Below, piece by piece: positions 32,801-60,894 of a stretch of 64,000 bases of DNA (its first letter is position 1; every line of letters starts with the position of its first letter). Location: contig CAUJGJ010000444.1 of assembly GCA_963170055.1 (NCBI GenBank), positions 4,313,118 through 4,377,117 on the forward strand, in the 5' to 3' direction. The notes under the pieces are model-generated. The model had not been told where the DNA came from and ran no database searches. It worked only from the letters and a program-made list of their open reading frames with translations. The position numbers were made by a program, and so were the translations under genes. The DNA is from Halisarca cf. caerulea. Its lineage: Eukaryota; Porifera; Demospongiae; Chondrillida; Halisarcidae.

Positions 32801-33149
32801 CTATTCTTGACTTCTTATGCATGAATCATGCATTAACAAAGTCATAAAACTTATAGCTGCTGTCATTTTTCAAATAAGTTGTTGGTGTCAGAAATAGAAA
32901 ATCGCTTATTTCTTTTGTAAGTTATTTGCAATTCTTGCAATTTCATGCTATTCTTGACTCCTTATGCATGATTCATGCATTAACAAAGTCATAACACTTA
33001 TAGCTGCGGTGATTTGTCAAATAAGTTGTTGGTGTCAGAAATAGAAAATCGCAAATTTCTTTTCTAAGTTATTTGCAATTCTTGCAATTTCATGCTATTC
33101 TTGACTTCTTATGCATGATTCATGCATTAACAAAGTCATAAAACTTATA

Positions 33150-36100
33150 GCTGCTGTTTATTTTTCAAATAAATTGTCCGTGTAAGTAAAAAAATCGCCA
33201 ATTTCAGTTCTTAGTTATTTGCAATTCTTGTAATTTGATGCTATTCTTTACTTCTTATGCATGATTCATGCATTAACAAAGTCATAAAACTTATAGCTGC
33301 GGTGATTTGTCAAATAAGTTGTTGGTGTCAGAAATAGAAAATCGCTTATTTCTTTTGTAAGTTATTTGCAATTCTTGCAATTTCATGCTATTCTTGACTT
33401 CTTATGCATGATTCATGCATTAACAAAGTCATAAAACTTATAGCTGCTGTGATTTTTCAAATAAATTGTCCGTTTCAGAAATAGAAAATCGCAAATTTCT
33501 TTTCTAAGTTATTTGCAATTCTTGCAATTTCATGCTATTCTTGACTTCTTATGCATGATTCATGCATTAACAAAGTCATAAAACTTATAGCTGCGGTGAT
33601 TTGTCAAATAAGTTGTTGGTGTCAGAAAAAGAAAATCGTGAAATTCTTTTCTAAGTTATTTGCAATTCTTGCAATTTCATGCTATTCTTGACTTCTTATG
33701 CATGATTCATGCATTAACAAAGTCATAAAACTTATAGCTGCTGTGATTTTTCAAATAAATTGTCCGTTTCAGAAATTGAAAATCGCAAATTTCTGTTCTA
33801 AGTTATTTGCAATTCTTGCAATTTCATGCTATTCTTGACTTCTTATGCATGATTCATGCATTAACAAAGTCATAAAACTTATAGCTGCTTTGATTTTTCA
33901 ATTAAATTGTTGGTGTCAGAAATAGAAAATCGCAAATTTCTTTTCTAAGTTATTTGCAATTCTTGCAATTTCATGCTATTCTTGACTTCTTATGCATGAT
34001 TCATGCATTAACAAAGTCATAAAACTTATACCTGCGGTGATTATTCAAATAAATTGTTGGTGTCAGAAATAGAAAATCGCAAATTTTTTTTCTAAGTTAT
34101 TTGCAATTCTTGCAATTTCATGCTATTCTTGACTTCTTATGCATGATTCATGCACTAACAAAGTCATAAAACTTATAGCTGCGGTGATTTGTCAAATAAA
34201 TTGTTGGTGTCAGAAATAGAAAATCGCAAATTTCTTTTGTAAGTTATTTGCAATTCTTGCAATTTCATGCTATTCTTGACTTCTTATGCATGATTCATGC
34301 ATTAACAAAGTCATAAAACTTATAGCTGCGGTGATTTGTCAAATAAGTTGTTGTTGTCAGAAATAGAAAATCGCAAATTTCTTTTCTAAATTATTTGCAA
34401 TTCTTGCAATTTCATGCTATTCTTGACTCCTTATGCATGATTCATGCATTAAGAAAGTCATAAAACTTATAGTTGCTTTGATTTTTCAATTAAATTGTCC
34501 GTGTCAGAAATAGAAAATCGCAAATTTCTTTTCTAAGTTATTTGCAATTCTTGCAATTTCATGCTATTCTTGACTTCTTATGCATGATTCATGCATTAAC
34601 AAAGTCATAAAACTTATAGCTGCGGTGATTTGTCAAATAAGTTGTTGTTGTCAGAAATAGAAAATCGCTAATTTCTTTTCTAAGTTATTTGCAATTCTTG
34701 CAATTTCATGCTATTCTTGACTTCTTATGCATGATTCATGCATTAACAAAGTCATAAAACTTATAGCTGCTTTGATTTTTCAATTAAATTGTCCGTGTCA
34801 GAAATAGAAAAATGCAAATTTCTTTTGTAAGTTATTTGCAATTCTTGCAATTTCATGCTATTCTTGACTTCTTATGCATGATTCATGCATTAACAAAGTC
34901 ATAACACTTATAGCTGCTTTGATTTTTCAATTAAATTGTCCGTGTCAGAAATAGAAAATCGCAAATTTCTTTTCTAAGTTATTTGCAATTCTTGCAATTT
35001 CATGCTATTCTTGACTTCTTATGCATGATTCATGCATTAACAAAGTCATAAAACTTATACCTGCGGTGATTATTCAAATAAATTGTTGGTGTCAGAAATA
35101 GAAAATCGCAAATTTTTTTTCTAAGTTATTTGCAATTCTTGCAATTTCATGCTATTCTTGACTCCTTATGCATGATTCATGCATTAAGAAAGTGATAAAA
35201 CTTATAGTTGCTTTGATTTTTCAATTAAATTGTCCGTGTCAGAAATAGAAAATCGCAAATTTCTTTTCTAAGTAATTTGCAATTCTTGCAATTTCATGCT
35301 ATTCTTGACTTCTTATGCATGATTCATGCATTAACAAAGTCATAAAACTTATAGCTGCTGTTTATTTTTCAAATAAATTGTCCGTGTAAGTAAAAAAATC
35401 GCCAATTTCAGTTCTTAGTTATTTGCAATTCTTGTAATTTGATGCTATTCTTTACTTCTTATGCATGATTCATGCATTAACAAAGTCATAAAACTTATAG
35501 CTGCGGTGATTTGTCAAATAAGTTGTTGGTGTCAGAAATAGAAAATCGCTTATTTCTTTTGTAAGTTATTTGCAATTCTTGCAATTTCATGCTATTCTTG
35601 ACTTCTTATGCATGATTCATGCATTAACAAAGTCATAAAACTTATAGCTGCTGTGATTTTTCAAATAAATTGTCCGTTTCAGAAATAGAAAATCGCAAAT
35701 TTCTTTTCTAAGTTATTTGCAATTCTTGCAATTTCATGCTATTCTTGACTACTTATGCATGATTCATGCATTAACAAAGTCATAAAACTTATAGCTGCGG
35801 TGATTTGTCAAATAAGTTGTTGGTGTCAGAAAAAGAAAATCGTGAAATTCTTTTCTAAGTTATTTGCAATTCTTGCAATTTCATGCTATTCTTGACTTCT
35901 TATGCATGATTCATGCATTAACAAAGTCATAAAACTTATAGCTGCTGTGATTTTTCAAATAAATTGTCCGTTTCAGAAATTGAAAATCGCAAATTTCTGT
36001 TCTAAGTTATTTGCAATTCTTGCAATTTCATGCTATTCTTGACTTCTTATGCATGATTCATGCATTAACAAAGTCATAAAACTTATACCTGCGGTGATTA

Positions 36101-37600
36101 TTCAAATAAATTGTTGGTGTCAGAAATAGAAAATCGCAAATTTTTTTTCTAAGTTATTTGCAATTCTTGCAATTTCATGCTATTCTTGTCTTCTTATGCA
36201 TGATTCATGCACTAACAAAGTCATAAAACTTATAGCTGCGGTGATTTGTCAAATAAATTGTTGGTGTCAGAAATAGAAAATCGCAAATTTCTTTTGTAAG
36301 TTATTTGCAATTCTTGCAATTTCATGCTATTCTTGACTTCTTATGCATGATTCATGCATTAACAAAGTCATAAAACTTATAGCTGCGGTGATTTGTCAAA
36401 TAAGTTGTTGTTGTCAGAAATAGAAAATCGCAAATTTCTTTTCTAAATTATTTGCAATTCTTGCAATTTCATGCTATTCTTGACTCCTTATGCATGATTC
36501 ATGCATTAAGAAAGTCATAAAACTTATAGTTGCTTTGATTTTTCAATTAAATTGTCCGTGTCAGAAATATAAAATCGCAAATTTCTTTTCTAAGTTATTT
36601 GCAATTCTTGCAATTTCATGCTATTCTTGACTTCTTATGCATGATTCATGCATTAACAAAGTCATAAAACTTATAGCTGCGGTGATTTGTCAAATAAGTT
36701 GTTGTTGTCAGAAATAGAAAATCGCAAATTTCTTTTCTAAGTTATTTGCAATTCTTGCAATTTCATGCTATTCTTGACTTCTTATGCATGATTCATGCAT
36801 TAACAAAGTCATAAAACTTATAGCTGCTTTGATTTTTCAATTAAATTGTCCGTGTCAGAAATAGAAAAATGCAAATTTCTTTTCTAAGTTATTTGCAATT
36901 CTTGCAATTTCATGCTATTCTTGACTTCTTATGTATGATTCATGCATTAACAAAGTCATAAAACTTATAGCTGCGGTGATTTGTCAAACAAATTGTTGGT
37001 GTCAGAAATAGAAAATCGCAAATTTTTTTTCTAAGTTATTTGCAATTCTTGCAATTTCATGCTATTCTTGACTTCTTATGCATGATTCATGCATTAACTA
37101 AGTCATAAAACTTATAGCTGCTTTGATTTTTCAATTAAATTGTCCGTGTCAGAAATAGAAAAATGCAAATTTCTTTTCTAAGTTATTTGCAATTTTTGCA
37201 ATTTCATGCTATTCTTGACTTCTTATGCATGATTCATGCATTAACAAAGTCATAACACTTATAGCTGCTTTGATTTTTCAATTAAATTGTCCGTGTCAGA
37301 AATAGAAAATCGCAAATTTCTTTTCTAAGTTATTTGCAATTCTTGCAATTTCATGCTATTCTTGACTTCTTATGCATGATTCATGCATTAACAAAGTCAT
37401 AAAACTTATACCTGCGGTGATTATTCAAATAAATTGTTGGTGTCAGAAATAGAAAATCGCAAATTTTTTTTCTAAGTTATTTGCAATTCTTGCAATTTCA
37501 TGCTATTCTTGACTCCTTATGCATGATTCATGCATTAAGAAAGTCATAAAACTTATAGTTGCTTTGATTTTTCAATTAAATTGTCCGTGTCAGAAATAGA
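33150..37600 (+). repeat. Higher-order repeat with a 15-monomer then 14-monomer offset
   Basis: The block with CAGTTCTTAG recurs at 33,205 and 35,410 (2,205 bp, 15 monomers). Further along, the variant TGCACTAAC recurs at 34,151 and 36,209 (2,058 bp, 14 monomers). The second copy has therefore lost one monomer around 36,070, as expected from unequal exchange. Confidence 0.75.
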
Positions 37601-38089
37601 AAATTGCAAATTTCTTTTCTAAGTAATTTGCAATTCTTGCAATTTCATGCTATTCTTGACTTCTTATGCATGATTCATGCATTAACAAAGTCATAAAACT
37701 TATAGCTGCGGTGATTTGTCAAATAAATTGTTGGTGTCAGAAATAGAAAATCGCAAATTTTTTTTCTAAGTTATTTGCAATTCTTGCAATTTCATGCTAT
37801 TCTTGACTTCTTATGCATGATTCATGCATTAACAAAGTCATAAAACTTATAGCTGCTGTGATTTTTCAAATAAATTGTCCGTTTCAGAAATAGAAAATCG
37901 CAAATTTCTTTTCTAAGTTATTTGCAATTCTTGCAATTTCATGCTATTCTTGACTTCTTATGCATGATTCATGCATTAACAAAGTCATAAAACTTATAGC
38001 TGCGGTGATTTGTCAAATAAGTTGCTGGTGTCAGAAATAGAAAATCGCAAATTTCTTTTCTAATTTATTTTCAATTCTTGCAATTTCAT

Positions 38090-41000
38090 GCTATTCTTGA
38101 CTCCTTATGCATTCATTCATGCATTAACAAAGTCATAACACTTATAGCTGCGGTGATTTGACAAATAAATTCTTCGTGTCATAAAGAGAAAATCGCAAAT
38201 TTCTTTTGTGAATTATTTGCAATTCTCACAATTTCATGCTATTCTTGACTTCTTATGCATGATTCATGCATTAACAAAGTCATAAAACTTATAGCTGCGG
38301 TGATTTTTCAAATTAGTTGTTGGTGTCAGAAATAGAAAATCGCAAATTTCTTTTGTAAGTTATTTGCAATTCTTGCAATTTTATGCTATTCTTGACTTCT
38401 TATGCATGATTCATGCATTAACAAAGTCATAAAACTTATAGCTGCGGTGATTTGTCAAATAAGTTGTTGGTGTCAGAAATAGAAAATCGCAAATTTCTCT
38501 TCTAAGTTATTTTCAATTCTTGCAATTTCATGCTATTCTTGACTCCTTATGCATTCATTCATGCATTAACAAAGTCATAACACTTATAGCTGCGGTGATT
38601 TGACAAATAAATTCTTCGTCTCAGAAAGAGAAAATCGCAAATTTCTTTTGTGAATTATTTGCAATTCTCGCAATTTCATGCTATTCTTGACTTCTTATGC
38701 ATGATTCAAGCATGAACAAACTCATAAAACTTATAGCTGCGGTGATTTGACAAATATGTTGTTGGTGTCAGAAATAGAAAATCGCAAATTTCTTTTCTAA
38801 GTTATTTGCAATTCTTGCAATTTCATGGTATTCTTGACTTCTTATGCATGATTCATGCATTAACAAAGTCATAAAACTTATAGCTGCTTTGATTTTTCAA
38901 TTAAATTGTCCGTGTCAGAAATAGAAAAATGCAAATTTCTTTTCTAAGTTATTTGCAATTCTTGCAATTTCATGCTATTCTTGACTTCTTATGCATGATT
39001 CATGCATTAACAAAGTCATAAAACTTATAGCTGCTTTGATTTTTCAATTAAATTGTCCGTGTCAGAAATAGAAAAATGCAAATTTCTTTTCTAAGTTATT
39101 TGCAATTCTTGCAATTTAATGCTATTCTTGACTTCTTATGCATGATTCATGCATTAACAAAGTCATAAAACTTATAGCTGCGGTGATTTGTCAAATAAGT
39201 TGTTGGTGTCAGAAATAGAAAATCGCAAATTTCTTTTCTAAGTTATTTGCAATTCTTGCAATTTCATGCTATTCTTGACTTCTTATGCATGATTCATGCA
39301 TTAACAAAGTCATAAAACTTATAGCTGCGGTGATTTGTCAAATTAGTTGTTGGTGTCAGAAATAGAAAATCGCAAATTTCTTTTGTAAGTTATTTGCAAT
39401 TCTTGCAATTTTATGCTATTCTTGACTTTTTATGCATGATTCATGCATTAACAAAGTCATAAAACTTATAGCTGCGGTGATTTGTCAAATAAGTTGTTGG
39501 TGTCAGAAATAGAAAATCGCAAATTTCTTTTCTAAGTTATTTTCAATTCTTGCAATTTCATGCTATTCTTGACTCCTTATGCATTCATTCATGCATTAAC
39601 AAAGTCATAACACTTATAGCTGCGGTGATTTGACAAATAAATTCTTCGTCTCAGAAAGAGAAAATCGCAAATTTCTTTTGTGAATTATTTGCAATTCTCG
39701 CAATTTCATGCTATTCTTGACTTCTTATGCATGATTCATGCATTAGCAAAGTCATAAAACTTATAGCTGCGGTGATTTGTCAAATTAGTTGTTGTTGTCA
39801 GAAATAGAAAATCGCAAATTTCTTTTGTAAGTTATTTGCAATTCTTGCAATTTCATGCTATTCTTGACTCCTTATGCATTCATTCATGCATTAACAAAGT
39901 CATAACACTTATAGCTGCGGTGATTTGACAAATAAATTCTTCGTCTCAGAAAGAGAAAATCGCAAATTTCTTTTGTGAATTATTTGCAATTCTCGCAATT
40001 TCATGCTATTCTTGACTTCTTATGCATGATTCATGCATTAACAAAGTCATAAAACTTACAGCTGCGGTGATTTGTCAAATAAGTTGTTGGTGTCAGAAAT
40101 GGAAAATCGCAAATTTCTTTTCTAAGTTATTTTCAATTCTTGCAATTTCATGCTATTCTTGACTCCTTATGCATTCATTCATGCATTAACAAAGTCATAA
40201 CACTTATAGCTGCGGTGATTTGACAAATAAATTCTTCGTCTCAGAAAGAGAAAATCGCAAATTTCTTTTGTGAATTATTTGCAATTCTCGCAATTTCATG
40301 CTATTCTTGACTTCTTATGCATGATTCATGCATTAGCAAAGTCATAAAACTTATAGCTGCGGTGATTTGTCAAATTAGTTGTTGGTGTCAGAAATAGAAA
40401 ATCGCAAATTTCTTTTGTAAGTTATTTGCAATTCTTGCAATTTTATGCTATTCTTGACTTCTTATGCATGATTCATGCATTAACAAAGTCATAAAACTTA
40501 TAGCTGCGGTGATTTGTCAAATAAGGTGTTGGTGTCAGAAATAGAAAATCGCAAATTTCTTTTCTAAGTTATTTTCAATTCTTGCAATTTCATGCTATTC
40601 TTGACTCCTTATGCATTCATTCATGCATTAACAAAGTCATAACACTTATAGCTGCGGTGATTTGACAAATAAATTCTTCGTCTCAGAAAGAGAAAATCGC
40701 AAATTTCTTTTGTGAATTATTTGCAATTCTCGCAATTTCATGCTATTCTTGACTTCTTATGCATGATTCATGCATTAGCAAAGTCATAAAACTTATAGCT
40801 GCGGTGATTTGTCAAATTAGTTGTTGGTGTCAGAAATAGAAAATCGCGAATTTCTTTTGTAAGTTATTTGCAATTCTTGCAATTTCATGCTATTCTTGAC
40901 TTCTTATGCATGATTCATGCATTAACAAAGTCATAAAACTTATAGCTGCGGTGATTTGTCAAATTAGTTGTTGGTGTCAGAAATAGAAAATCGCAAATTT

Positions 41001-41830
41001 CTTTTGTAAGTTATTTGCAATTCTTGCAATTTAATGCTATTCTTGACTTTTTATGCATGATTCATGCATTAACAAAGTCATAAAACTTACAGCTGCGGTG
41101 ATTTGTCAAATAAGTTGTTGGTGTCAGAAATAGAAAATCGCAAATTTCTTTTCTAAGTTATTTTCAATTCTTGCAATTTCATGCTATTCTTGACTCCTTA
41201 TGCATTCATTCATGCATTAACAAAGTCATAACACTTATAGCTGCGGTGATTTGACAAATAAATTCTTCGTCTCAGAAAGAGAAAATCGCAAATTTCTTTT
41301 GTGAATTATTTGCAATTCTCGCAATTTCATGCTATTCTTGACTTCTTATGCATGATTCATGCATGAACAAACTCATAAAATTTATAGCTGCGGTGATTTG
41401 ACAAATAAGTTGTTGGTGTCAGAAATAGAAAATCGCAAATTTCTTTTCTAAGTTATTTGAAATTCTTGCAATTTCATGCTATTCTTGACTTCTTATGCAT
41501 GATTCATGCATTAACAAAGTCATAAAACTTATAGCTGCGGTGATTTGTCAAATAAATTGTTGGTGTCAGAAATAGAAAATCGCAAATTTCTTTTGTAAGT
41601 TATTTGCAATTCTCGCAATTTCATGCTATTCTTGACTTCTTATGCATGATTCATGCATTAGCAAAGTCATAAAACTTATAGCTGCGGTGATTTGTCAAAT
41701 TAGTTGTTGGTGTCAGAAATCGAAAATCGCAAATTTCTTTTGTAAGTTATTTTCAATTCTTGCAATTTCATGCTATTCTTGACTCCTTATGCATTCATTC
41801 ATGCATTAACAAAGTCATAACACTTATAGC
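38090..41830 (+). repeat. Satellite subfamily with an altered dyad (ATGCATTCATTCATGCAT)
   Basis: Within this stretch about one monomer in every few carries CTCCTTATGCATTCATTCATGC instead of the usual dyad (e.g. 38,101, 38,545, 39,577, 39,867, 40,165, 40,610, 41,205, 41,789). It is linked to the CTTCGTCTCAG variant in the same monomer. The regular recurrence shows local spreading of a 3-4-monomer unit. Confidence 0.75.
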
Positions 41831-42560
41831 TGCGGTGATTTGACAAATAAATTCTTCGTCTCAGAAAGAGAAAATCACAAATTTCTTTTGTGAATTATTT
41901 GCAATTCTCGCAATTTCATGCTATTCTTGACTTCTTATGCATGATTCATGCATGAACAAACTCATAAAATTTATAGCTGCGGTGATTTGACAAATAAGTT
42001 GTTGGTGTCAGAAATAGAAAATCGCAAATTTCTTTTCTAAGTTATTTGAAATTCTTGCAATTTCATGCTATTCTTGACTTCTTATGCATGATTCATGCAT
42101 TAACAAAGTCATAAAACTTATAGCTGCGGTGATTTGTCAAATAAATTGTTGGTGTCAGAAATAGATAATCGCAAATTTCTTTTCTAAGTTATTTTCAATT
42201 CTTGCAATTTCATGCTATTCTTGACTTCTTATGCATGATTCATGCATTAACAAAGTCATAAAACTTATAGCTGCTTTGATTTTTCAATTAAATTGTCCGT
42301 GTCAGAAATAGAAAATCGCAAATTTCTTTTCTAAGTTATTTGCAATTCTTGCAATTTCATGCTATTCTTGACTTCTTATGCATGATTCATGCATTAAAAA
42401 AGTCATAAAACTTATAGCTGCGGTGATTTGTCAAATAAATTGTTGGTGTCAGAAATAGAAAATCGCAAATTTCTTTTGTAAGTCATTAGCAATTCTTGAA
42501 ATTTCATACTATTCTTGACTTCTTATGCATGATTCATGCATTAACAAAGTCATAAAGCTT

Positions 42561-42569
42561 ATAGCTGCG
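42561..42569. repeat. Target-site duplication, left copy (ATAGCTGCG)
   Basis: This is the last nine bases of satellite before the transposon. The same nine bases follow its right end at 48,771-48,779, where the satellite resumes in register (GTGATTTG). A second satellite copy without the insertion (50,824-50,832) has the nonamer only once. Confidence 0.92.
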
Positions 42570-42661
42570 TAGTCTCGGAACCAGACCCAACTTTTCTTAT
42601 GACGTCACTTCCTGCCGCCGTGAAAAGTTGGGTCTGGCAAGTATGGTGAGCAAAGTCGTTG
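42570..42661 (+). repeat. Left terminal inverted repeat, itself a hairpin with an ETS/CRE motif
   Basis: It is the reverse complement of 48,679-48,770 except for one base. Inside it, CCAGACCCAACTTTTC (42,581-42,596) and GAAAAGTTGGGTCTGG (42,622-42,637) form a perfect 16-bp stem with a 25-bp loop. The loop holds the palindromic CRE word TGACGTCA (42,600-42,607), joined on the minus strand to an ETS core as AGGAAGTGACGTCA (42,600-42,613). Likely roles are transposase binding and, on this side, promoter activity for the helicase. Confidence 0.93.
42600..42613 (-). promoter_or_regulatory. ETS/CRE composite site in the left TIR
   Basis: AGGAAGTGACGTCA on the minus strand combines an ETS core (GGAA) directly with a full CREB/ATF palindrome, a composite known from animal housekeeping promoters. 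It lies about 225 bp upstream of the helicase ATG. The mirror copy is at 48,727-48,740. Use by host factors is inference. Confidence 0.6.
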
Positions 42662-42835
42662 TAAAGCTAGGTTGCGTACGAGACCACATAATGATATTCA
42701 TACGCGCGTCGCGCACCGCATTATGATATTCATGCACACATTGCTGAATAAATTGGTAATGAATAATTATAAAGTGTAAAAGTTCAGCAACCATTGAGCC
42801 AGTTCAGATCGTTTTTTGTTGTACAACTCGCACGT
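42662..42835 (+). promoter_or_regulatory. Putative promoter/leader of the helicase gene
   Basis: This stretch lies between the left TIR and the helicase ATG. It contains two near-identical 15-mers (CATAATGATATTCAT at 42,687 and CATTATGATATTCAT at 42,719) separated by a CG-rich segment with GCGCGTCGCGC. A TATA-like TATAAAG at 42,768-42,774 lies 62 bp before the ATG. The word AAGTGTAAAAG at 42,772 recurs near the other end (48,637), suggesting subterminal binding sites. Confidence 0.45.
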
Positions 42836-44442
42836 ATGGACAAGTTGTCTTCAACAGTTGAAGAAGCATTCCAGTCATTAGTGGTTCCCTTTCCAAATCT
42901 GAAGACTCAGCAGAAGGATGCTGTTATGGCTTTCTTGCAGGGAAAGGATGTCTTTGTTGGCCTGCCAACAGGATTCGGCAAAACTATCATCCCTGCACTC
43001 CTTCCTGCCTGTTTGGACAACCTGCATGGAAAGGGGAGCATAGTACTGATTATCTCACCATTGATTGCATTGACAGTGGATCAATGCAAACGTTTTGTGG
43101 AAATGGGTTTGGAATGTGGTGCAGTGGGAGAGAGTGAAGACACAGATGCCAAAATACTAGATGGCACATTCCAGATAGTTTTGAGCAGCCCAGAAGCAAT
43201 ATTGATGAATGCGAAATACAGAAGCATGCTTCTGTCAGAACGGTATCAGAAAGGACTACGTGCCATTGTAATAGATGAGGCACATTCCATCTGCAAATGG
43301 TAAGAATTGTTATGCATTGAATCTAGAATTGTTTGTATGTGATAGGCCATGTACATGATGTACACATACTACTGCTTACTAGATTCTATTTCTGTCCGAC
43401 AATACACAGGGGTAAGGACTTCCGCCCTTGCTTTGGTCGCCTTGGAGAATTGAGATGTTTGGTGCCACCAAAGGTGAATCTGATAGCCATGACTGCTACA
43501 GCTAACAGGCGAACAAGGCTTACTGTTATGAAGAAGCTGATGATGGAGAGTGCACTTGTAGTGGATGTCTCGCCTGAGAAACCAAATATTTTTTTGGGCG
43601 TGGTGGGGGCAACTTCTGTAGAGAAGCTGGCAGATGACTTGTGTGCGGGCCTACACGAGCATGGGAAGCACTACCCAAAGACTTTAATCTTTTGTAAAAG
43701 GTCAGATAGCATCCACAGTTCATTGTCATAAAATAAGCAAAAAATTAAATTTTACCAACACTTGCACAGGTGTGACGACTGCGGCTACATATACTCGGCC
43801 ATTGAAAGAAAGATGGGAGACAAGTTCACCATTCCCAATGGCATAAGCTTGCCGTCCCCAGGTGAAAGGTAAGAACTTTACTGCCTAAAATGAACATTCA
43901 TACCATGCAGAGATTGTTCAAACCCACCACAGATTGGCCGAAATTTTTGTGTCACAGAATACACAAAAATTAAAGGAGGATGTTATAACCACATTCGTGC
44001 ACAACTCCACAGCAGCACGTGTAGTGATATGCACTGAGGCATTTGGGATGGGGCTTGATTGTCCAGGGATTGACCAGGTCATCCACTATGGCATACCTTC
44101 CACAGTGGAAGACTATATACAACATGTGGGAAGAGCTGGCAGGTCAGTATGTGAGCATGTACGTAATAGGTACATAAGTGTGTCAAGACACCTTTTACAT
44201 TTCTCAGATCAGGACAGCAAGCACGGGCAATCCTGTACCCAATACAGACAGCTGGGCACATCGACAAAGATATGAAAGTGTATGCAAAGAAGTTGGAACA
44301 AACCAGTACATGCAGGAGAGCCTTTCTGTACAAAGATTATCCTACGTCAACAAGCAAACCAACAAGTCCATGTCTGTGCTGTGATGTTTGCTTGTTGAAC
44401 TGCCAGTGTGGTGACTGTTTCAAACTAAATCGAATTTTGTAA
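42836..44442 (+). CDS. RecQ-family DEAH helicase of the transposon (5 exons, 432 aa)
   Basis: Exons 42,836-43,299, 43,410-43,700, 43,770-43,868, 43,933-44,142 and 44,208-44,442; introns of 110, 69, 64 and 65 bp, all phase 2. The start is the first ATG of the frame; the frame extends upstream only through non-ATG codons. RecQ motifs run in order: Gln motif (LKTQQKDAV), I GLPTGFGKT (residues 42-50), Ia IISPLIAL, II DEAH (147-150), WGKDFRP (155-161), III IAMTATA (180-186), IV TLIFCK (246-251), V ICTEAFGMGLD, VI QHVGRAGR (to 355). A Cys-rich end (CRRAF ... CLCCDVC ... CQCGDC) resembles the RecQ zinc-binding domain. Winged-helix and HRDC domains are absent, so this is a minimal 3'-5' helicase rather than a host BLM/WRN. 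Location inside the TIRs suggests a role in replication or repair during transposition (inference). Confidence 0.92.
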
Positions 44443-44788
44443 TCATCATTAGAATTGTAATGTGACTTTTACTGTGCAAAATGAAATGTGTATTAATAGA
44501 GTAAAGGAAAGCGGGTGTTCATGCATTAGACATAGAAAGCATGCATGGTTCACAAGTGGGATGACCTATAAGGATGGTGATAACTAGAAGCCCTGCAATA
44601 GAGAATTACATCATTTTGCGCCTCCTATAAGTCAGGTTGCTGCTAACTGGAAGACAGGAAGGTGAACCCCCCAAACCTATTAACAAGCCAAAGTGTCAAC
44701 TATTGGTGGTAAACCTTGTATGGTGACAAGCCAGCACAAAAGCAAATATTCACATACAGCACCTCAATTCAGCCTAGATATTACAGCA
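44443..44788 (+). other. Spacer between the two transposon genes
   Basis: This is 346 bp of AT-rich DNA with no open frame of note and no canonical AATAAA after the helicase stop. The open frame of the next gene extends upstream to 44,693 but only from a non-ATG codon. It probably contains the helicase terminator and the promoter of the second gene; no clear TATA box was seen. Confidence 0.5.
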
Positions 44789-47700
44789 ATGACAGAAGCA
44801 AAATGTGGAATATGCGGGATGCCAGAAAGCGACAGAAAGAAAAGGATACTTTTGAGGGGAAAAACAGGTGAAAGTCAGTGTGAAATTTTCCTTGAGTATG
44901 TTGCCAGCAAATGCACTGATGAATGGAGCGTCCAGGAAGTGAATAAGCGACTGAATGAACTACCACCACAAAAGGAGTATATGTGCTCAAAGTGCCAGGG
45001 TCTTGCGGGGAAATGGAAGGCATTACAGAAGCAATTGGCAGACAATGAACAGCTAATGCACAGCAGAGTGAAATCTCTGATGCAGGAAAGTCAGCAGCCC
45101 AGGCAAGATGAAGCGACCAGCAGTAAGAGACAGCCACTTCCACACAGCCTAGTTCCCAAGCGACTTAAGTGGGGGGATGGAGGGTCTCCTGAGTTAGTGG
45201 TGAGTTAAAACAGAGCACCAACATAGTGACATGGTCCACTGCAATAGTTGGCAAACTGTCTCACTACTATAATAGGTTTCAAAGGGTTATGCAAGGCCAG
45301 TACATACACACGTTACAGGCAAAACTGAGAAGGCAGCAATAAAACATTTAACTGGGAGCAACTACAGGGCCACGGCCAAGGATCTGATTAGTGACAATGA
45401 GAGTAGGAGAGCAGTACTGGAAATGGTTGGAAAGGAGATCCTAAATAAGGAAATTGGAAGCATTACCTCCTACAATAGTTTCACAGAGTTGCACACATCT
45501 AACATTGGACAGCGGTGCAATAACTTTTCATGGGAAACTTTGTGGACCAACATCCAGACCAATGCACCAATGCTCTCACTCCTACTGCAATACCTCACCC
45601 CACCACAAAAGACAGAGAGCCTCCTTCCTGTATTTTGCATGATCACGGCAATGCTCACCAAGGCCCGGAATCGCAGAGTGTGCTTTTTACAGGAAGTGAT
45701 CTCACTAATTTTACATGCCGGCCACACAAGTAGTGAGGTACACATGGAGTAGTATAAGTATAGTCTTTACACTGTATAATGAATATTGTACTCTCTCAGA
45801 CTCAGACAGCACTCTCGCAACTGATGATTACTGTCACACCACAAACATTGCGGAATGTGCTTGATGACATGGGCAAAGATTTTGATATCCAAGTCAGAAA
45901 GTGGAGCAACTGCCTTGCAGGCCTCCTAGAAGAACACTCACAGGTATGTATGCTTGCCACAGATACACTCTATGTATGACTTATACTAATCGTCCCTTCA
46001 TACGTATGTACAGGGAACTGAATTGAAGATGCTTGGAATCTACCAGAAGCACATCACAGGAGAGGCACCCAATGTCACAATTAACTCAACAAACTTGTCA
46101 CTGCTGGTAAGTAACACTCTGAATAATGAAAGTGCACAAATCACTACAATGAATTATGTGCACATTTATTATATTCTCAGAATGACACATGGATGGATGG
46201 TGAATTGGATGACCACAGTGTTGTAGCTGAGCACAACACTTCAACAATCCCAGTGAGTGTAATAAACCATTTGTGCAGGGCATGTGGAAAATGCAAACAA
46301 CTTTAAATTCTCACCGTTCAACATTGCAGATGGCAAGTTTGACTAAATCAAGTAGCACGCCTCAAATCCACAGCGATAGCCTGATGCTTGAGCTTCTCCA
46401 ACCACTGTCTTTCTCTCCGATCACACCAACACAGCCTATGGAAGTAAGTATATTATATACATTGAATGAAAGCTCGACAATACACATGTTGACATGCCAT
46501 CTACACACAGGTACACACAACCGATGCAGAGGAAACCATTGATTGGTATGGCTTCAAAATAGTTGGCGACAACCTGGACAAAAACATCCGCAGGTTTGAA
46601 GACAGCATTCACAGTAGTTGATCAGCATACACATACCTACTGTACACCCTTTAAATTTACAGGAGACACCAGACTATCGAGCATCAGACTCAATCGCTCC
46701 ACTGCTATCACAGTTATGCAGTGCGTGATAGAGTAGACGTAAGTAGCCTCAGCAACGAGGCACCAGGGGATGTTCGTTCAGTGGATCACCGGAAGTTCCT
46801 ACCGTCACAGGATACCATTGACTCCCTGGAGGAATCCCTTGCCATATATGTACAAAGGTTGGCACCCACATCCGTAATTATGCTAGCTAATACAAACCAT
46901 GTTAGTGACTATACTGATGTTACAACTTGGCAGGATACTAACCAAACATCCTATGTATAGCAAGGAGAGGGGATCTGTGGTGTGGAACATTCCTCATAGA
47001 CGGACAAGTGAGATTTCCCAGCAAAGCACTGTGGTCAGTACACTATATATAATTTCTCCTCCATGGAAATAGTGCTTTATTTGACTCTACAAACAGGTAC
47101 CTCTTGGTATAATCAACGCCAATGAGGCTTACACCAGTGAAATGATCACCATCCTGGAAGAACTCCACAAGTATGTTCCCCAGGTGGAACATACTGTGAC
47201 AGTGACAGCAGAGAGGTACACCAAGACCAAGTCTGTGACTATGGTGTACCCCATTCTTCTGGGTGGTGATCAGCTCAGCACAGCCCGAGCCAGATCAGCC
47301 AAAGCTGCTAAGAGGACAGAGACACCGTGTGCTGACAGACTGGATGGTCTTGTCCCTGTCTTTGAGGACTGGCATGCAAGAGTCACCCTACTTGCAGTAA
47401 GGCTATACACATAAGCGTGCATTACAACATTCCATTGACACCAGCATTGCATTTCCATACAGGTCATTTGGGCCAGGTTTTACAAGGCCACTTGGGCCAT
47501 CCCTGGCACCCTATTCCAACTGAGGAACCTACTGTACAGGTCCTCAGTGGGTCAGGATCCCTCCAAGAACGTGAATGCAGTGGAGGACTTTCTACAAGTC
47601 ACACTGCATTCTTACGTTATTGGTGCTGCAAAGCACATCATGGGGATCAAGGTGGGTGAGGAGCCAGAGAGTGTTACCCCGATTGAGGCCATTTCTAAGG

Positions 47701-48551
47701 AAATAGTGAAGAGATTTACTACACTTCAATGGTAAGATTTCATGTAGACTCGAATTGTTAGTAAAACATGCATTAAATATAGCTCTCACATGTACAGGAC
47801 TATGGCTGACACCTCAGATCAAAGTGGAAGTATTCTGTCACACACTAAGGAGCTGATGACCATGCTGCTACTTTGGTACCACTACCGAGATGTCTCCAGG
47901 GAGGGTGATGGTGACCGCCTCAATGCATTTATGCCAGTGCTTCTGAGTATATTCAAGAATGCAAAGAGGAAGAACTATAGCAAAGAGGTGGCCATCTTCA
48001 TCCTCCAGCATGAGTATTTACTGTCCCCGAGGATGAAGGAGCAATTGCTCTTCTGCAGAACAGTGAATACTCATGGGATCAAAGGTAGAAACATTCCGTG
48101 TGATTTACACATGGAGCACCTAAACAGGTTAGAATGCAGCCTCTGGCAATCACCTATAACAGCCCCCACCTATGCTTTCATAAGTTTTACAAATGCAGAA
48201 CACTACACTCACAAGGGTATGCCTTACCTTATACACAGGAACCTGAAGACATCGATGGGGGACTCTGGAGCCAACATCACCCCCGCTGTGATCCAGCGAT
48301 GTGGCAGAACGCTTCAGCCGCTTACGGATCTGGCCAGGAAGTTCCACCAGCCATCATCAGAGGTGCACTCCAAGGCCAAAGAAGAGCTGGACATGAACGT
48401 CGTCACCAACTGCCTGTTGGCCAATGGGGTTTTCAGCGATGAGGAAACCAAGATACCAAATCTTGAAAAACAGAAGACTTTTCTCGGTTCCCTTAATAAG
48501 AAAAACTTTGCTGCATGGCTACGAAAAACTCTCGAAGTTGAGGTTCATTGA
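44789..48551 (+). CDS. DUF6589-like protein with N-terminal Cys4 module; candidate transposase (13 exons, 961 aa)
   Basis: Exons: 44,789-45,199, 45,276-45,737, 45,800-45,943, 46,014-46,106, 46,181-46,252, 46,330-46,443, 46,511-46,593, 46,663-46,857, 46,934-47,033, 47,097-47,396, 47,463-47,731, 47,798-48,127, 48,239-48,551. Introns are 62-111 bp, all GT-AG, frame open throughout. Cys pairs at residues 6/9 (CGIC) and 66/69 (CSKC) suggest a ZAD-like zinc module, followed by a basic, Gln/Ser-rich linker. The C-terminal half matches my memory of DUF6589: WYGFKIVGDNLDKNIR, then LLGGDQL (615-618), DRLDGLVPVFEDWH (638-651), EGDGDRL, then IPCDLHMEHLNR (847-858). DUF6589 proteins are numerous in fungi and early animals; enzymatic activity is unproven as far as I know. 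Conserved acidic residues (D616, E648/D649, E854) could be a DDE-type site, which is inference. The start ATG was chosen because it directly precedes the Cys module. Confidence 0.88.
48128..48238 (+). other. Last intron of the DUF6589-like gene: 111 bp, in frame and stop-free
   Basis: The intron is 37 codons long, keeps frame and has no stop, so reading through would add 37 residues between HLNR and LKTSM. The splice sites (CAG|GT and ACACAG|G) and the continuity of the flanking conserved region favour splicing. A retained-intron isoform is possible. Confidence 0.7.
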
Positions 48552-48678
48552 AGCATAGATTGAAGAAAAATTAGATCAAGCGAATGTTTGCAACACGTGT
48601 GCATGACATCATAGAATTGTGGTTACACTCGCGTCTTAAAGTGTAAAAGGTTAATGTCGCGGAATTCAGCCGACACTG
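48552..48678 (+). other. 3' subterminal region of the transposon
   Basis: A short non-coding stretch between the stop codon and the right TIR. It includes AACACGTGTGCATGACATCA and AAGTGTAAAAGG, the latter shared with the left subterminal region. No canonical polyadenylation signal was found, so transcription may end within the TIR or the satellite. Confidence 0.5.
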
Positions 48679-48770
48679 CAACGACTTTGCTGACCATACT
48701 TGCCAGACCCAACTTTTCACGGCGGCAGGAAGTGACGTCATAAGAAAAGTTGGGTCTGGTTCCGAGACTA
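48679..48770 (-). repeat. Right terminal inverted repeat with hairpin and ETS/CRE motif
   Basis: It is the mirror of the left TIR with a single mismatch in 92 bp (GCTGACC here, GCTCACC expected). It contains the same 16-bp stem and, at 48,727-48,740, AGGAAGTGACGTCA on the + strand. It ends CCGAGACTA at 48,770. The close identity of the two ends supports a recent insertion or active maintenance. Confidence 0.93.
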
Positions 48771-48779
48771 ATAGCTGCG
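48771..48779. repeat. Target-site duplication, right copy (ATAGCTGCG)
   Basis: The nine bases directly after the right TIR repeat 42,561-42,569, and the satellite monomer then continues in register. Confidence 0.92.
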
Positions 48780-50823
48780 GTGATTTGTCAAATAAATTGT
48801 CCGTGTACGAAAAAAAAAATGGAAAATTTCTTTTCTAAGTTATTTGCAATTCTTGCAATTTCATGCTACTCTTGACTTCTTATGCATGATTCATGCATTA
48901 ACAAACTCATAAAACTTATAGCTGCGGTGATTTGTCAAATAAGTTGTTGGTGTCAGAAATAGAAAATCGCAAATTTCTTTTGTAAGTTATTTGCAATTCT
49001 TGCAATTTCATACTATTCTTGACTCCTTATGCATGATTCATACATTAACAAAGTCATAAAACTTATAGCTGCGGTGATTTGTCAAATAAATTGTCCGTGT
49101 AAGAAAAAAAAATCGCAAATTTCTTTTGTAAGTTATTTTCAATTCTTGCAATTTCATGCTATTCTTGACTTCTTATGCATGATTCATGCATTAACAAAGT
49201 CATAAAACTTATAGCTGCGGTGATTTTTCAAATAAATTGTCCATTAAGAAAAAAAGAATCGCAAATTTTTTTCTAAGTTATTAGCAATTCTTGCAATTTC
49301 ATGCTATTCTTGACTTCATATGCATGATTCATGCATTAACAAAGTCATAAAACTTATAGCTGCGGTGATTTGACAAATAAATTCTTCGTGTCAGAAAGAG
49401 AAAATCGCAAATTTCTTTTGTGAATTATTTGCAATTCTCGAAATTTCATGCTATTCTTGACTTCTTATGCATGATTCATGCATGAAAAAACTCATAAAAC
49501 TTATAGCTGCGGTGATTTGACAAATAAGTTGTTGGTGCCAGAAATAGAAAATCGCAAATTTCTTTTCTAAGTTATTTGCAATTCTTGCAATTTCATGCTA
49601 TTCTTGACTTCTTATGCATGATTCATGCATTAAAAAAGTCATAAAACTTATAGCTGCGGTGATTTGTCAAATAAATTGTTGGTGTAAGAAATAGAAAATC
49701 GCAAATTTCTTTTGTAAGTCATTAGCAATTCTTGAAATTTCATACTATTCTTGACTTCTTATGCATGATTCATGCATTAACAAAGTCATAAAACTTATAG
49801 CTGCGGTGATTTGACAAATAAATTCTTCGTGTCAGAAAGAGAAAATCGCAAATTTCTTTTGTGAATTATTTGCAATTCTCGAAATTTCATGCTATTCTTG
49901 ACTTCTTATGCATGATTCATGCATGAAAAAACTCATAAAACTTATAGCTGCGGTGATTTGACAAATAAGTTGTTGGTGCCAGAAATAGAAAATCGCAAAT
50001 TTCTTTTCTAAGTTATTTGCAATTCTTGCAATTTCATGCTATTCTTGACTTCTTATGCATGATTCATGCATTAAAAAAGTCATAAAACTTATAGCTGCGG
50101 TGATTTGTCAAATAAATTGTTGGTGTAAGAAATAGAAAATCGCAAATTTCTTTTGTAAGTCATTAGCAATTCTTGAAATTTCATACTATTCTTGACTTCT
50201 TATGCATGATTCATGCATTAACAAAGTCATAAAACTTATAGCTGCGGTGATTTTTCAAATAAATTGTCCATTAAGAAAAAAAGAATCGCAAATTTTTTTC
50301 TAAGTTATTAGCAATTCTTGCAATTTCATGCTATTCTTGACTTCATATGCATGATTCATGCATTAACAAAGTCATAAAACTTATAGCTGCGGTGATTTGA
50401 CAAATAAATTCTTCGTGTCAGAAAGAGAAAATCGCAAATTTCTTTTGTGAATTATTTGCAATTCTCGAAATTTCATGCTATTCTTGACTTCTTATGCATG
50501 ATTCATGCATGAAAAAACTCATAAAACTTATAGCTGCGGTGATTTGACAAATAAGTTGTTGGTGCCAGAAATAGAAAATCGCAAATTTCTTTTGTAAGTT
50601 ATTTGCAATTCTTGCAATTTCATGCTATTCTTGACTTCTTATGCATGATTCATGCATTAAAAAAGTCATAAAACTTATAGCTGCGGTGATTTGTCAAATA
50701 AATTGTTGGTGTCAGAAATAGAAAATCGCAAATTTCTTTTGTAAGTCATTAGCAATTCTTGAAATTTCATACTATTCTTGACTTCTTATGCATGATTCAT
50801 GCATTAACAAAGTCATAAAACTT

Positions 50824-50832
50824 ATAGCTGCG
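50824..50832. other. Paralogous empty site of the transposon insertion
   Basis: The surrounding satellite (about 50,656-51,115) matches the joined flanks of the transposon. On the left it carries the rare AGTCATTAGCAATTCTTGAAA with CATACTATTC; on the right, GTGTACGAAAAAAAAAATGG with CATGCTACTC. The nonamer ATAGCTGCG is present once and no insertion is there. After removing the element and one duplication, the two copies are about 2,053 bp (14 monomers) apart. Confidence 0.85.
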
Positions 50833-52289
50833 GTGATTTGTCAAATAAATTGTCCGTGTACGAAAAAAAAAATGGAAAATTTCTTTTCTAAGTTATTTGC
50901 AATTCTTGCAATTTCATGCTACTCTTGACTTCTTATGCATGATTCATGCATTAACAAAGTCATAAAACTTATAGCTGCGGTGATTTGTCAAATAAGTTGT
51001 TGGTGTCAGAAATAGAAAATCGCCAATTTCTTTTGTAAGTTATTTGCAATTCTTGCAATTTCATGCTATTCTTGACTCCTTATGCATGATTCATACATTA
51101 ACAAAGTCATAAAACTTATAGCTGCGGTGATTTGTCAAATAAGTTGTTGGTGTCAGAAATAGAAAATCGCAAATTTCTTTTCTAAGTTATTTTCAATTCT
51201 TGCAATTTCATGCTATTCTTGACTCCTTATGCATGATTCATACATTAACAAAGTCATAAAACTTATAGCTGCGGTGATTTGTCAAATAAATTGTCCATGT
51301 AAGAAAAAAAAATCGCAAATTTATTTTGTAAGTTATTTTCAATTCTTGCAATTTCATGCTATTCTTGACTTCTTATGCATGATTCATGCATTAACAAAGT
51401 CATAAAACTTATAGCTGCTGTGATTTTTCAAATAAATTGTCCGTGTAAGAAAAAAAATCGCAAATTTCTTTTTTAAGTTATTTGCAATTCTTTCAATTTA
51501 ATGCTATTCTTGACTTCTTATGCATGATTCATGCATTAACAAAGTCATAAAACTTATATCTGCGGTGATTTGTCAAATAAGTTGTTGGTGTCAGAAATAG
51601 AAAATCGCAAATTTCTTGTGTAAGTTATTTGCAATTCTTGCAATTTCATGCTATTCTTGACTCCCTATGCATGATTCATGCATTAACAAAGTCATAACAC
51701 TTATAGCTGCAGTGATTTCACAAATAAATTCTTCGTGTCATAAAGAGAAAATCGCAAATTTCTTTTGTGAATTATTTGCAATTCTCGAAATTTCATGCTA
51801 TTCTTCACTTCTTATGCATGATTCATGCATTAACAAAGTCATAAAACTTATAGCTGCGGTGATTTGACAAATAAATTGTTGGTGTCAGAAATAGAAAATC
51901 GCAAATTTCTTTTGTAAGTTATTTGCAATTCTTTCAATTTCATGCTATTCTTGACTTCTTATGCATGATTCATGCATTAACAAAGTCATAAAACTTATAG
52001 CTGCGGTGATTTTTCAAATAAAATGTTGGTGTCAGAAATAGAAAATCACAAATTTTTTTTCTAAGTTATTTGCAATTCTTGCAATTTCATGCTATTCTTG
52101 ACTTCTTATGCATGATTCATGCATTAACAAAGTCATAAAACTTATAGCTGCTGTGATATTTCAAATAAATTGTCCGTTTCAGAAATAGAAAATCGCAAAT
52201 TTCTTTTCTAAGTTATTTGCAATTCTTGCAATTTCATGCTATTCTTGACTTCTTATGCATGATTCATGCATTAACAAAGTCATAAAACT

Positions 52290-55200
52290 TATAGCTGCTG
52301 TGATTTTTCAAATAAATTGTCCGTTTCAGAAATAGAAAATCGCAAATTTCTTTTCTAAGTTATTTGCAATTCTTGCAATTTCATGCTATTCTTGACTTCT
52401 TATGCATGATTCATGCATTAACAAAGTCATAACACTTATAGCTGCGGTGATTTGTAAAATAAGTTGTTGGTGTCAGAAATAGAAAATCGCAAATTTCTTT
52501 TCTAAGTTATTTGCAATTCTTGCAATTTCATGCTATTCTTGACTCCCTATGCATGATTCATGCATTAACGAAGTCATAACACTTATAGCTGCAGTGATTT
52601 GACAAATAAATTCTTCGTGTCAAAAAGAGAAAATCGCAAATTTCTTTTGTGAATTATTTGCAATTCTCGAAATTTCATGCTATTCTTCACTTCTTATGCA
52701 TGATTCATGCATTAACAAAGTCATAAAACTTATAGCTGCGGTGATTTGGCAAATAAATTGCTGGTGTCAGAAATAGAAAATCGCAAATTTCTTTTGTAAG
52801 TTATTTGCAATTCTTGCAATTTCATGCTATTCTTGACTTCTTATGCATGATTCATGCATTAACAAAGTCATAAAACTTATAGCTGCGGTGATTTTTCAAA
52901 TAAATTGTCCATTAAGAAAAAAAGAATCGCAAATTTTTTTCTAAGTTATTTGCAATTCTTGCAATTTCATGCTATTCTTGACTTCTTATGCATGATTCAT
53001 GCATTAACAAAGTCATAAAACTTATAGCTGCGGTGATTTGTCAAATAAGTTGTTGGTGTCAGAAAGAGAAAATCGCAAATTTCTTTTCTAAGTTATTTGC
53101 AATTCTTGCAATTTCATGCTATTCTTGACTCCTTATGCATGATTCATGCATTAACAAAGTCATAAAACTTATAGCTGCGGTGATTTGTCAAATAAATTGT
53201 CCGTTTCAGAAATAGAAAATCGCAAATTTCTTTTCTAAGTTATTTGCAATTCTTGCAATTTCATGCTATTCTTGACTTCTTATGCATGATTCATGCATTA
53301 ACAAAGTCATAACACTTATAGCTGCGGTGATTTGTCAAATAAGTTGTTGGTGTCAGAAATAGAAAATCGCAATTTCTTTTCTAAGTTATTTGCAATTCTT
53401 GCAATTTCATGCTATTCTTGACTTCTTATGCATGATTCATGCATTAACAAAGTCATAAAACTTATAGCTGCGGTGATTTGTCAAATAAATTGTTGGTGTC
53501 AGAAATAGAAAATCACAAATTTTTTTTCTAAGTTATTTGCAAATCTTGCAATTTCATGCTATTCTTGACTTCTTATGCATGATTCATGCATGAACAAAGT
53601 CATAAAACTTATAGCTGCTGTGATTTTTCAAATAAATTGTCCGTTTCAGAAATAGAAAATCGCAAATTTCTTTTCTAAGTTATTTGCAATTCTTGCAATT
53701 TCATGCTATTCTTGACTTCTTATGCATGATTCATGCATTAACAAAGTCATAAAACTTATAGCTGCTTTGATTTTTCAATTAAATTGTCCGTGTCTGAAAT
53801 AGAAAATCGCAAATTTCTTTTGTAAGTTATTTGCAATTCTTGCAATTTCATGCTATTCTTGACTTCTTATGCATGATGCATGCATTAACAAAGTCATAAA
53901 ACTTATAGCTGCGGTGATTTGTCAAATAAGTTGTTGGTGTCAGAAATAGAAAATCGCAAATTTCTTTCCTAAGTTATTAGCAATTCTTGCAATTTCATGC
54001 TATTCTTGACTCCTTATGCATGATTCATGCATTAACAAAGTCATAAAACTTATAGCTGCGGTGATTTGACAAATAAAGTCTTCGTGTCAGAAAGAGAAAA
54101 TCGCAAATTTCTTTTGTGAATTATTTGCAATTCTCGAAATTTCATGCTATTGTTGACTTCTTATGCATGATTCATGCATGAACAAACTCATAAAACTTAT
54201 AGCTGCGGTGATTTGTCAAATGAGTTGTTGGTGTCAGAAATAGAAAATCGCAAATTTCTTTTGTAAGTTATTAGCAATTCTTGCAATTTCATGCTATTCT
54301 TGACTCCTTATGCATGATTCATGCATTAACAAAGTCATAAAACTTATAGCTGCGGTGATTTGACAAATAAATTGTTGGTGTCAGAAATAGAAAATCGTAA
54401 ATTTCTTTTGTAAGTTATTTGCAATTCTTTCAATTTCATGCTATTCTTGACTTCTTATGCATGATTCATGCATTAACAAAGTCATAAAACTTATAGCTGC
54501 GGTGATTTTTCAAATAAATTGTTGGTGTCAGAAATAGAAAATCGCAAATTTCTTTTCTAAGTTATTTGCAATTCTTGCAATTTCATGCTATTCTTGACTT
54601 CTTATGCATGATTCATGCATTAACAAAGTCATAAAACTTATAGCTGCTGTGATTTTTCAAATAAATTGTCCGTTTCAGAAATAGAAAATCGCAAATTTCT
54701 TTTCTAAGTTATTTGCAATTCTTGCAATTTCATGCTATTCTTGACTTCTTATGCATGATTCATGCATTAACAAAGTCATAACACTTATAGCTGCGGTGAT
54801 TTGTAAAATAAGTTGTTGGTGTCAGAAATAGAAAATCGCAAATTTCTTTTCTAAGTTATTTGCAATTCTTGCAATTTCATGCTATTCTTGACTCCCTATG
54901 CATGATTCATGCATTAACAAAGTCATAACACTTATAGCTGCAGTGATTTGACAAATAAATTCTTCGTGTCATAAAGAGAAAATCGCAAATTTCTTTTGTG
55001 AATTATTTGCAATTCTCGAAATTTCATGCTATTCTTCACTTCTTATGCATGATTCATGCATTAACAAAGTCATAAAACTTATAGCTGCGGTGATTTGGCA
55101 AATAAATTGCTGGTGTCAGAAATAGAAAATCGCAAATTTCTTTTGTAAGTTATTTGCAATTCTTTCAATTTCATGCTATTCTTGACTTCTTATGCATGAT

Positions 55201-56640
55201 TCATGCATTAACAAAGTCATAAAACTTATAGCTGCGGTGATTTTTCAAATAAATTGTCCATTAAGAAAAAAAGAATCGCAAATTTTTTTCTAAGTTATTT
55301 GCAATTCTTGCAATTTCATGCTATTCTTGACTTCTTATGCATGATTCATGCATTAACAAAGTCATAAAACTTATAGCTGCGGTGATTTGTCAAATAAGTT
55401 GTTGGTGTCAGAAAGAGAAAATCGCAAATTTCTTTTCTAAGTTATTTGCAATTCTTGCAATTTCATGCTATTCTTGACTTCTTATGCATGATTCATGCAT
55501 TAACAAAGTCATAAAACTTATAGCTGCGGTGATTTGTCAAATAAATTGTCCGTTTCAGAAATAGAAAATCGCAAATTTCTTTTCTAAGTTATTTGCAATT
55601 CTTGCAATTTCATGCTATTCTTGACTTCTTATGCATGATTCATGCATTAACAAAGTCATAACACTTATAGCTGCGGTGATTTGTCAAATAAGTTGTTGGT
55701 GTCAGAAATAGAAAATCGCAATTTCTTTTCTAAGTTATTTGCAATTCTTGCAATTTCATGCTATTCTTGACTTCTTATGCATGATTCATGCATTAACAAA
55801 GTCATAAAACTTATAGCTGCGGTGATTTGTCAAATAAATTGTTGGTGTCAGAAATAGAAAATCACAAATTTTTTTTCTAAGTTATTTGCAAATCTTGCAA
55901 TTTCATGCTATTCTTGACTTCTTATGCATGATTCATGCATTAACAAAGTCATAAAACTTATAGCTGCTGTGATTTTTCAAATAAATTGTCCGTTTCAGAA
56001 ATAGAAAATCGCAAATTTCTTTTCTAAGTTATTTGCAATTCTTGCAATTTCATGCTATTCTTGACTTCGTATGCATGATTCATGCATTAACAAAGTCATA
56101 AAACTTATAGCTGCTTTGATTTTTCAATTAAATTGTCCGTGTCTGAAATAGAAAATCGCAAATTTCTTTTGTAAGTTATTTGCAATTCTTGCAATTTCAT
56201 GCTATTCTTGACTTCTTATGCATGATGCATGCATTAACAAAGTCATAAAACTTATAGCTGCGGTAATTTGTCAAATAAGTTGTTGGTGTCAGAAATAGAA
56301 AATCGCAAATTTCTTTTCTAAGTTATTAGCAATTCTTGCAATTTCATGCTATTCTTGACTCCTTATGCATGATTCATGCATTAACAAAGTCATAAAACTT
56401 ATAGCTGCGGTGATTTGACAAATAAAGTCTTCGTGTCAGAAAGAGAAAATCGCAAATTTCTTTTGTGAATTATTTGCAATTCTCGAAATTTCATGCTATT
56501 GTTGACTTCTTATGCATGATTCATGCATGAACAAACTCATAAAACTTATAGCTGCGGTGATTTGTCAAATGAGTTGTTGGTGTCAGAAATAGAAAATCGC
56601 AAATTTCTTTTGTAAGTTATTAGCAATTCTTGCAATTTCA
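52290..56640 (+). repeat. Higher-order repeat: units of about 2,349 bp (16 monomers)
   Basis: Marker variants recur 2,349 bp apart: TTTGTAAAAT at 52,451/54,800, TGGCAAATAA at 52,747/55,096, GCATGATGCA at 53,871/56,220. The copies differ at several single positions (for example GCATGAAC near 53,590 against GCATTAAC near 55,939), so this duplication is older than the 2,499-bp one. Marker TGGCAAATAA reappears at 62,881, indicating a further partial copy near the window end. Confidence 0.82.
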
Positions 56641-59600: not shown

Positions 59601-60894
59601 GCATGATTCATGCATTAACATAGTCATAAAACTTATAGCTGCGGTGATTTGACAAATTAATTGTTGGTGTTAGAAATAGAAAATCGCAAATTTCTTTTGT
59701 AAGTTATTTGCAATTCTTGCAATTTCATGCTATTCTTGACTTCTTATGCATGATTCATGCATTAACAAAGTCATAAAACTTATAGCTGCGGTGATTTGAC
59801 AAATAAATTGTTGGTGTCAGAAATAGAAAGTCGCAAATTTCTTTTCTAAGTTATTTGCAATTCTTTCAATTTCATGCTATTCTTGACTTCTTATGCATGA
59901 TTCATGCATTAACAAAGTCATAAAACTTATAGCTGCGGTGATTTGTCAAATAAGTTGTTGGTGTCAGAAATAGAAAATCACAAATTTTTTTTCTAAGTTA
60001 TTTGCAATTCTTGCAATTTCATGCTATTCTTGACTTCTTATGCATGATTCATGCATTAACAAAGTCATAAAACTTATAGCTGCTTTGATTTTTCAATTAA
60101 ATTGTCCGTGTCTGAAATAGAAAATCGCAAATTTCTTTTGTAAGTTATTTGCAATTCTTGCAATTTCATGCTATTCTTGACTTCTTATGCATGATTCATG
60201 CATTAACAAAGTCATAAAACTTATAGCTGCGGTGATTTGTCAAATAAGTTTTTGGTGTCAGAAATAGAAAATCGCAAATTTCTTTTCTAAGTTATTTTCA
60301 ATTCTTGCAATTTCATGCTATTCTTGACTTCTTATGCATGATTCATGCATTAACAAAGTCATAAAACTTATAGCTGCGGTGATTTGTCAAATAAGTTGTT
60401 GGTGTCAGAAATAGAAAATCGCAAATTTCTTTTCTAAGTTATTAGCAATTCTTGCAATTTCATGCTATTCTTGACTCCTTATGCATGATTCATGCATTAA
60501 CAAAGTCATAAAACTTATAGCTGCGGTGATTTGACAAATAAAGTCTTCGTGTCAGAAAGAGAAAATCGCAAATTTCTTTTGTGAATTATTTGCAATTCTC
60601 GAAATTTCATGCTATTGTTGACTTCTTATGCATGATTCATGCATGAACAAACTCATAAAACTTATAGCTGCGGTGATTTGTCAAATGAGTTGTTGGTGTC
60701 AGAAATAGAAAATCGCAAATTTCTTTTGTAAGTTATTTGCAATTCTTGCAATTTCATGCTATTCTTGACTCCTTTTGCATGATTCATGCATTAACAAAGT
60801 CATAACACTTATAGCTGCGGTGATTTGACAAATAAATTCTTCGTGTCAGAAAGAGAAAATCGTGAAATTCTTTTGTAAATTATTTGAAATTCTT
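55897..60894 (+). repeat. Higher-order repeat: two tandem 2,499-bp (17-monomer) units, near identical
   Basis: Markers fall exactly 2,499 bp apart: CGTATGC at 56,068/58,567, GCATGATGCA at 56,220/58,719, AAAACATATAG at 56,835/59,334, ATAGTCATAA at 57,121/59,620. 2,499 is 17 x 147. I noticed no differences between the units, so this is among the youngest duplications of the array. A partial third copy lacking at least one monomer follows from 60,895. Confidence 0.9.

Follow-up and report, generated by a model that had tools for sequence, protein, structure and literature searches.

In a stretch of 64,000 nucleotides from the sponge Halisarca cf. caerulea (hereafter the window), we found a complete DNA transposon of 6201 bp (42570-48770), inserted in a satellite array. 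The element is flanked by a 9-bp target-site duplication (TSD), is bounded by terminal inverted repeats (TIRs) and encodes a RecQ-like helicase together with a protein of the family DUF6589. As a complete and possibly autonomous element, it very probably represents a new family in the AcademH lineage of the Academ superfamily, an assignment made by features described in the literature (the helicase and the TSD length) and not by direct alignment of transposases. The features are as follows.

42561..42569, no strand: left TSD copy, 9 bp (ATAGCTGCG), from the sequence and the empty-site test
42570..42661, + strand: left TIR, 92 nt, containing a palindrome with 16-nt arms (42581-42596 and 42622-42637) whose loop includes TGACGTCA
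42836..44442, + strand: RecQ-like helicase gene, 432 amino acids, 5 exons (42836-43299, 43410-43700, 43770-43868, 43933-44142, 44208-44442)
44789..48551, + strand: DUF6589 gene, probable transposase, 961 amino acids, 13 exons (44789-45199, 45276-45737, 45800-45943, 46014-46106, 46181-46252, 46330-46443, 46511-46593, 46663-46857, 46934-47033, 47097-47396, 47463-47731, 47798-48127, 48239-48551)
48679..48770, - strand: right TIR, 92 nt, matching the left TIR at 91 of 92 positions
48771..48779, no strand: right TSD copy, 9 bp (ATAGCTGCG), from the sequence and the empty-site test
17507..64000, no strand: 147-bp satellite array hosting the element

A complete transposon and its two genes

The two TIRs differ by a single mismatch, and their first 19 nt, searched with up to three mismatches, occur only twice in the window, where shuffling predicts no occurrence. 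Because the array supplies its own empty site, both the insertion and the 9-bp length of the duplication are fixed. When the flanks were joined with one copy of the 9 bp, 232 stretches of the array matched across the junction, 200 of these being gapless and the best reaching 99.2%, whereas at a control junction keeping both copies none of the 237 array matches was gapless. The sequence-only reading had proposed a 6.2-kb unit with TIRs, a 9-bp target duplication and two intact, intron-rich genes, and the near-identical repeats, the exact flanking copies and the restored empty site bear out its boundaries. The gene models, of 5 and 13 exons, likewise agree with that description, having no internal stops and GT-AG borders at all 16 introns; both are splice predictions, chosen by hand from open reading frames (ORFs) and family patterns. 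No further gene was recognised in the unit, whose smaller ORFs were not searched singly, and neither Rfam nor tRNA scans of the window gave any match.

The helicase matches the Pfam families DEAD (5.1e-23) and Helicase_C (2.2e-15), and resembles BLM over residues 20-365 (4.8e-35). Against the recQ_fam model TIGR00614 it aligns over residues 20-421 (7.4e-55, profile positions 10-401 of 470), a match that falls below the model's curated cut-off, and Pfam reported neither an RQC nor an HRDC domain in it.

Fungi and early animals commonly have DUF6589-like proteins, which figure as unknowns. Residues 505-895 of the protein in the window match PF20231 (DUF6589) at 5.8e-43. Since the unit encodes no other recognised protein apart from the helicase, and since the pair recurs in elements with TIRs and 9-bp TSDs (see below), a DUF6589 lineage acting as transposase, as the sequence-only reading had argued, emerges as probable. 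To look for a catalytic site we followed conserved acidic residues position by position across 18 DUF6589 loci, some of them closely related and thus not 18 independent lineages. Candidate D452 (in GDNxDK) is kept in 15 of the 15 rows that cover it, D616 (GGDQL) in 15 of 16 and E854 (DLHMEH) in 18 of 18. In order and spacing these three would be consistent with a DDE triad in which a long insert precedes the glutamate, and eleven other acids are also at least 85% conserved (D455, D482, E568, D649, E699, D779, E783, D785, E811, D850 and D909). Comparison with known transposases, which had been suggested as a check, revealed no sequence link: members of the family showed no significant match to any other Pfam family, and searches of PDB sequences with the protein and with its profile gave nothing meaningful. 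No relative was found in the prokaryote genomes searched, nor among viral contigs when the window protein was the query. With the alignment as query, a single viral match appeared, on a phage-like contig (L070); we rejected it as spurious, as it covers a short stretch in a different frame from the contig's long tail-like ORF. In a full-text search of openly licensed papers the name DUF6589 occurred in none, and the sole match to PF20231 was an optics paper.

Relatives of the element across the genome

The 194-Mb genome contains diverged elements of the same build. The C4 element (L068 692-8421) carries helicase and DUF6589 genes in the window's order and has the exact TSD ATCACACTC on both sides, while the C308 element (2678982-2684869, 5888 bp) has the two genes convergent, TIRs of 76 nt (75/76 identical) and the exact TSD GGGCGATCG on both sides. 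The 9-bp TSD is therefore exact in all three elements and varied in sequence, and all three encode a RecQ-type helicase. This recurrence, together with the position of the gene inside the TIRs, upholds the earlier proposal that the element carries its own helicase. The C308 element (L071/L073 flank) adjoins a stretch with TGACGTCA and AAAATGGCGG that resembles a host promoter, and may have landed at the start of a gene. In the related L069 element (C369, near 1.54 Mb), the DUF6589 gene is split midway by about 3.9 kb of additional sequence (L069 4914-8818).

The pairing was then counted genome-wide. Searching with the DUF6589 protein gave at least 88 matches (best 48 of 431 first-look candidates scored), which merged into 41 loci, and searching with the helicase gave at least 139 (best 97 of 448 scored), which merged into 84. 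Among the matches listed, to which all counts of paired and unpaired loci in this text refer, a RecQ-like gene lies no more than 8 kb away from 29 of the 41 DUF6589 loci, where an even spread of loci would predict about 0.8% per locus; not all 29 are independent, since the paired loci include near-identical copies from different contigs. The helicase is upstream in 19 and downstream in 4 of the pairs that share a strand; 6 pairs are convergent and none is divergent. The sequence-only reading had looked to many copies with the same ends, both genes and 9-bp duplications; both genes occur with exact TSDs in two diverged elements.

The element's first 431 bp, used as query, gave 39 matches, including the window's own two. 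Copies on C5 and C40 (about 90% identical to the window element) and at C412:6008 kb (86%) hold its 5' part, with frame-shifting indels; the C412 copy, examined to 6015 kb, may be interrupted, with matching helicase pieces about 13 kb further on. The DUF6589 half was found at none of these three copies in the surrounding stretches retrieved. Among 18 short loci examined, both ends could be located in 12 fold-back mini-elements, of which five have an exact 9-bp TSD (L012, L016, L017, L018 and L020, with L016 and L017 being one locus on two contigs) and two match at 8 of 9 positions (L007, L013).

The ends themselves are shared. The window, C4 and C308 elements all start with TAGTCT and have CCAGACCC...GGGTCTGG inside each TIR, and this end pattern has 341 genomic matches (173 on one strand and 168 on the other, each palindromic mini-element counting twice) compared with none for the reversed pattern. 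The TIRs of several families (42570-42661, L068, L069 and L031) contain an internal palindrome with the core CCAGACCC/GGGTCTGG, often with TGACGTCA in the loop; the letters of the inner arms vary between families and their complementarity tends to persist. We examined 100 of the 341 rows for covariation and set aside 42 with an opposite-strand partner within 20 nt, which are whole palindromic mini-elements. The remaining 58 gave 38 distinct inner-arm pairs, in which 3.63 of 6 positions are complementary compared with 2.11 after shuffling (reached in 0 of 2000 trials), a figure that leans high, as some rows may be mini-elements with a changed other end. For the eight TIRs beside genes the values are 3.38 and 2.20 (3 of 2000 trials), driven by three TIRs. 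Covariation of the inner arms is suggestive only.

Probable assignment to AcademH and competing explanations

The sequence-only reading knew of no named superfamily with this pairing and took the element to be possibly undescribed, a view that the literature does not support. A RecQ helicase in Academ is mentioned, as an earlier report, in a paper from 2013 (PMC3627910). According to a paper from 2023 (PMC10045372), AcademH elements have TSDs of 9 or 10 bp and AcademX elements of 3 or 4 bp, and TSD length "seems related" to the helicase or the nuclease encoded, respectively. A survey of fungi names AcademH, KolobokH and Helitron as sources of helicase domains (PMC10799480), and Academ is counted among the DDD/E superfamilies. 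We therefore abandoned a new superfamily as the principal explanation, the combination of helicase and 9 or 10-bp TSD having already been described for AcademH. AcademH reportedly goes back to Kojima in 2020 (Mob DNA 11:15). The comparison covers the helicase carried by a TIR transposon and the TSD (9 bp here, 9 or 10 bp reported), and the element matches a named superfamily by these features and not by direct sequence. AcademX, which has a nuclease, no helicase and a TSD of 3 or 4 bp, would fall in the same superfamily provided that DUF6589 is the Academ transposase. Zisupton, KDZ and Plavaka are likewise large eukaryotic DNA transposons with TIRs, and differ in that DUF6589 has no Pfam match to them; Zisupton TSDs are 8 bp long, in contrast to the 9 bp seen here, and we know of no helicase in any of the three.

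Several observations weigh against placing the element in AcademH as a possibly autonomous transposon. DUF6589 is linked to known transposases by neither the Pfam nor the PDB sequence searches, and its equation with the Academ transposase is one that we infer. The element gives no sign of present activity. Twelve of the 41 DUF6589 loci lack a helicase within 8 kb, although one of these (C369:11579133) does have a helicase in its flank, and 55 of the 84 helicase loci lack a DUF6589 gene within that distance; the latter could represent RecQ genes of the host, decayed elements or further RecQ-carrying transposons. Five loci with a helicase, identified in the first DNA search (L009, L010, L011, L028 and L031, of which L028 and L031 are diverged helicase loci), showed no detectable DUF6589 half in the surrounding stretches fetched, and a 9-bp TSD is unclear or missing in five of the 12 mini-elements (L014, L015, L019, L025 and L026).

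The absence of a direct link to a named Academ transposase, of any other significant Pfam family and of the DUF6589 name in openly licensed papers would all fit a superfamily separate from Academ, whose unrelated DUF6589 transposase independently came to be associated with a RecQ helicase and 9-bp TSDs. We consider this unlikely, because a second, independent superfamily with both features that are described for AcademH would be a coincidence. It is also unlikely that the DUF6589 and RecQ elements constitute a superfamily or mechanism of their own, where palindromic TIRs with co-changing arms are extruded as hairpins and melted by the helicase, with replicative rather than plain cut-and-paste transposition. 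The unpaired helicase loci, including the five without a DUF6589 half, are what one would expect if host genes had been caught by chance between the repeats of another transposon, whereas the presence of the pair in three diverged elements that share their ends and have 9-bp TSDs, and the linkage of 29 of 41 DUF6589 loci to a helicase, contradict such a capture and leave it a next to negligible probability. KolobokH is also a DDD/E transposon with a RecQ helicase, and the helicase lies downstream in 4 and convergent in 6 of the 29 paired loci, an arrangement that could speak for it. Kolobok TSDs are TTAA, and the varied 9-bp TSDs found here contradict an element of this type, which we hold to be highly improbable; moreover, the protein matches DUF6589 alone in Pfam, which sets its transposase family apart. 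KolobokH, described as Kolobok with RecQ, is reported only from fungi (PMC9587614).

Surroundings, proposed mechanism and significance

Outside the element, the window is mostly filled by the 147-bp tandem satellite (about 315 copies, running to the window's end), which may be centromeric or heterochromatic. At 10354-13921, ORFs resembling the gag-pol of a Gypsy-type long terminal repeat retrotransposon (zinc knuckles, reverse transcriptase/RNase H and integrase-like stretches) were recognised by eye. A stretch of 26 residues at 4954-5031 is 50% identical to the helicase around the Walker A motif (E 0.002), and is perhaps a relic or part of another helicase-like gene.

For the AcademH-type element, we hypothesise that the DUF6589 protein is a DDE-type transposase with an RNase H fold that would bind the palindromic TIRs, cut at the TAGTCT...AGACTA ends and join these to target strands with a 9-bp stagger. 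The RecQ-type helicase may help to open the ends or to resolve a branched transfer intermediate, perhaps through replication, and the short fold-back elements that share these ends would be mobilised in trans. With its intact gene models and its clean empty site, the copy in the window is a good choice for an assay of excision and integration.

The new point is a probable function for DUF6589, as the transposase of AcademH. If DUF6589 is tied to elements of the AcademH type, many genes now listed as "uncharacterized", and the RecQ-like genes that adjoin them, would become mobile DNA.
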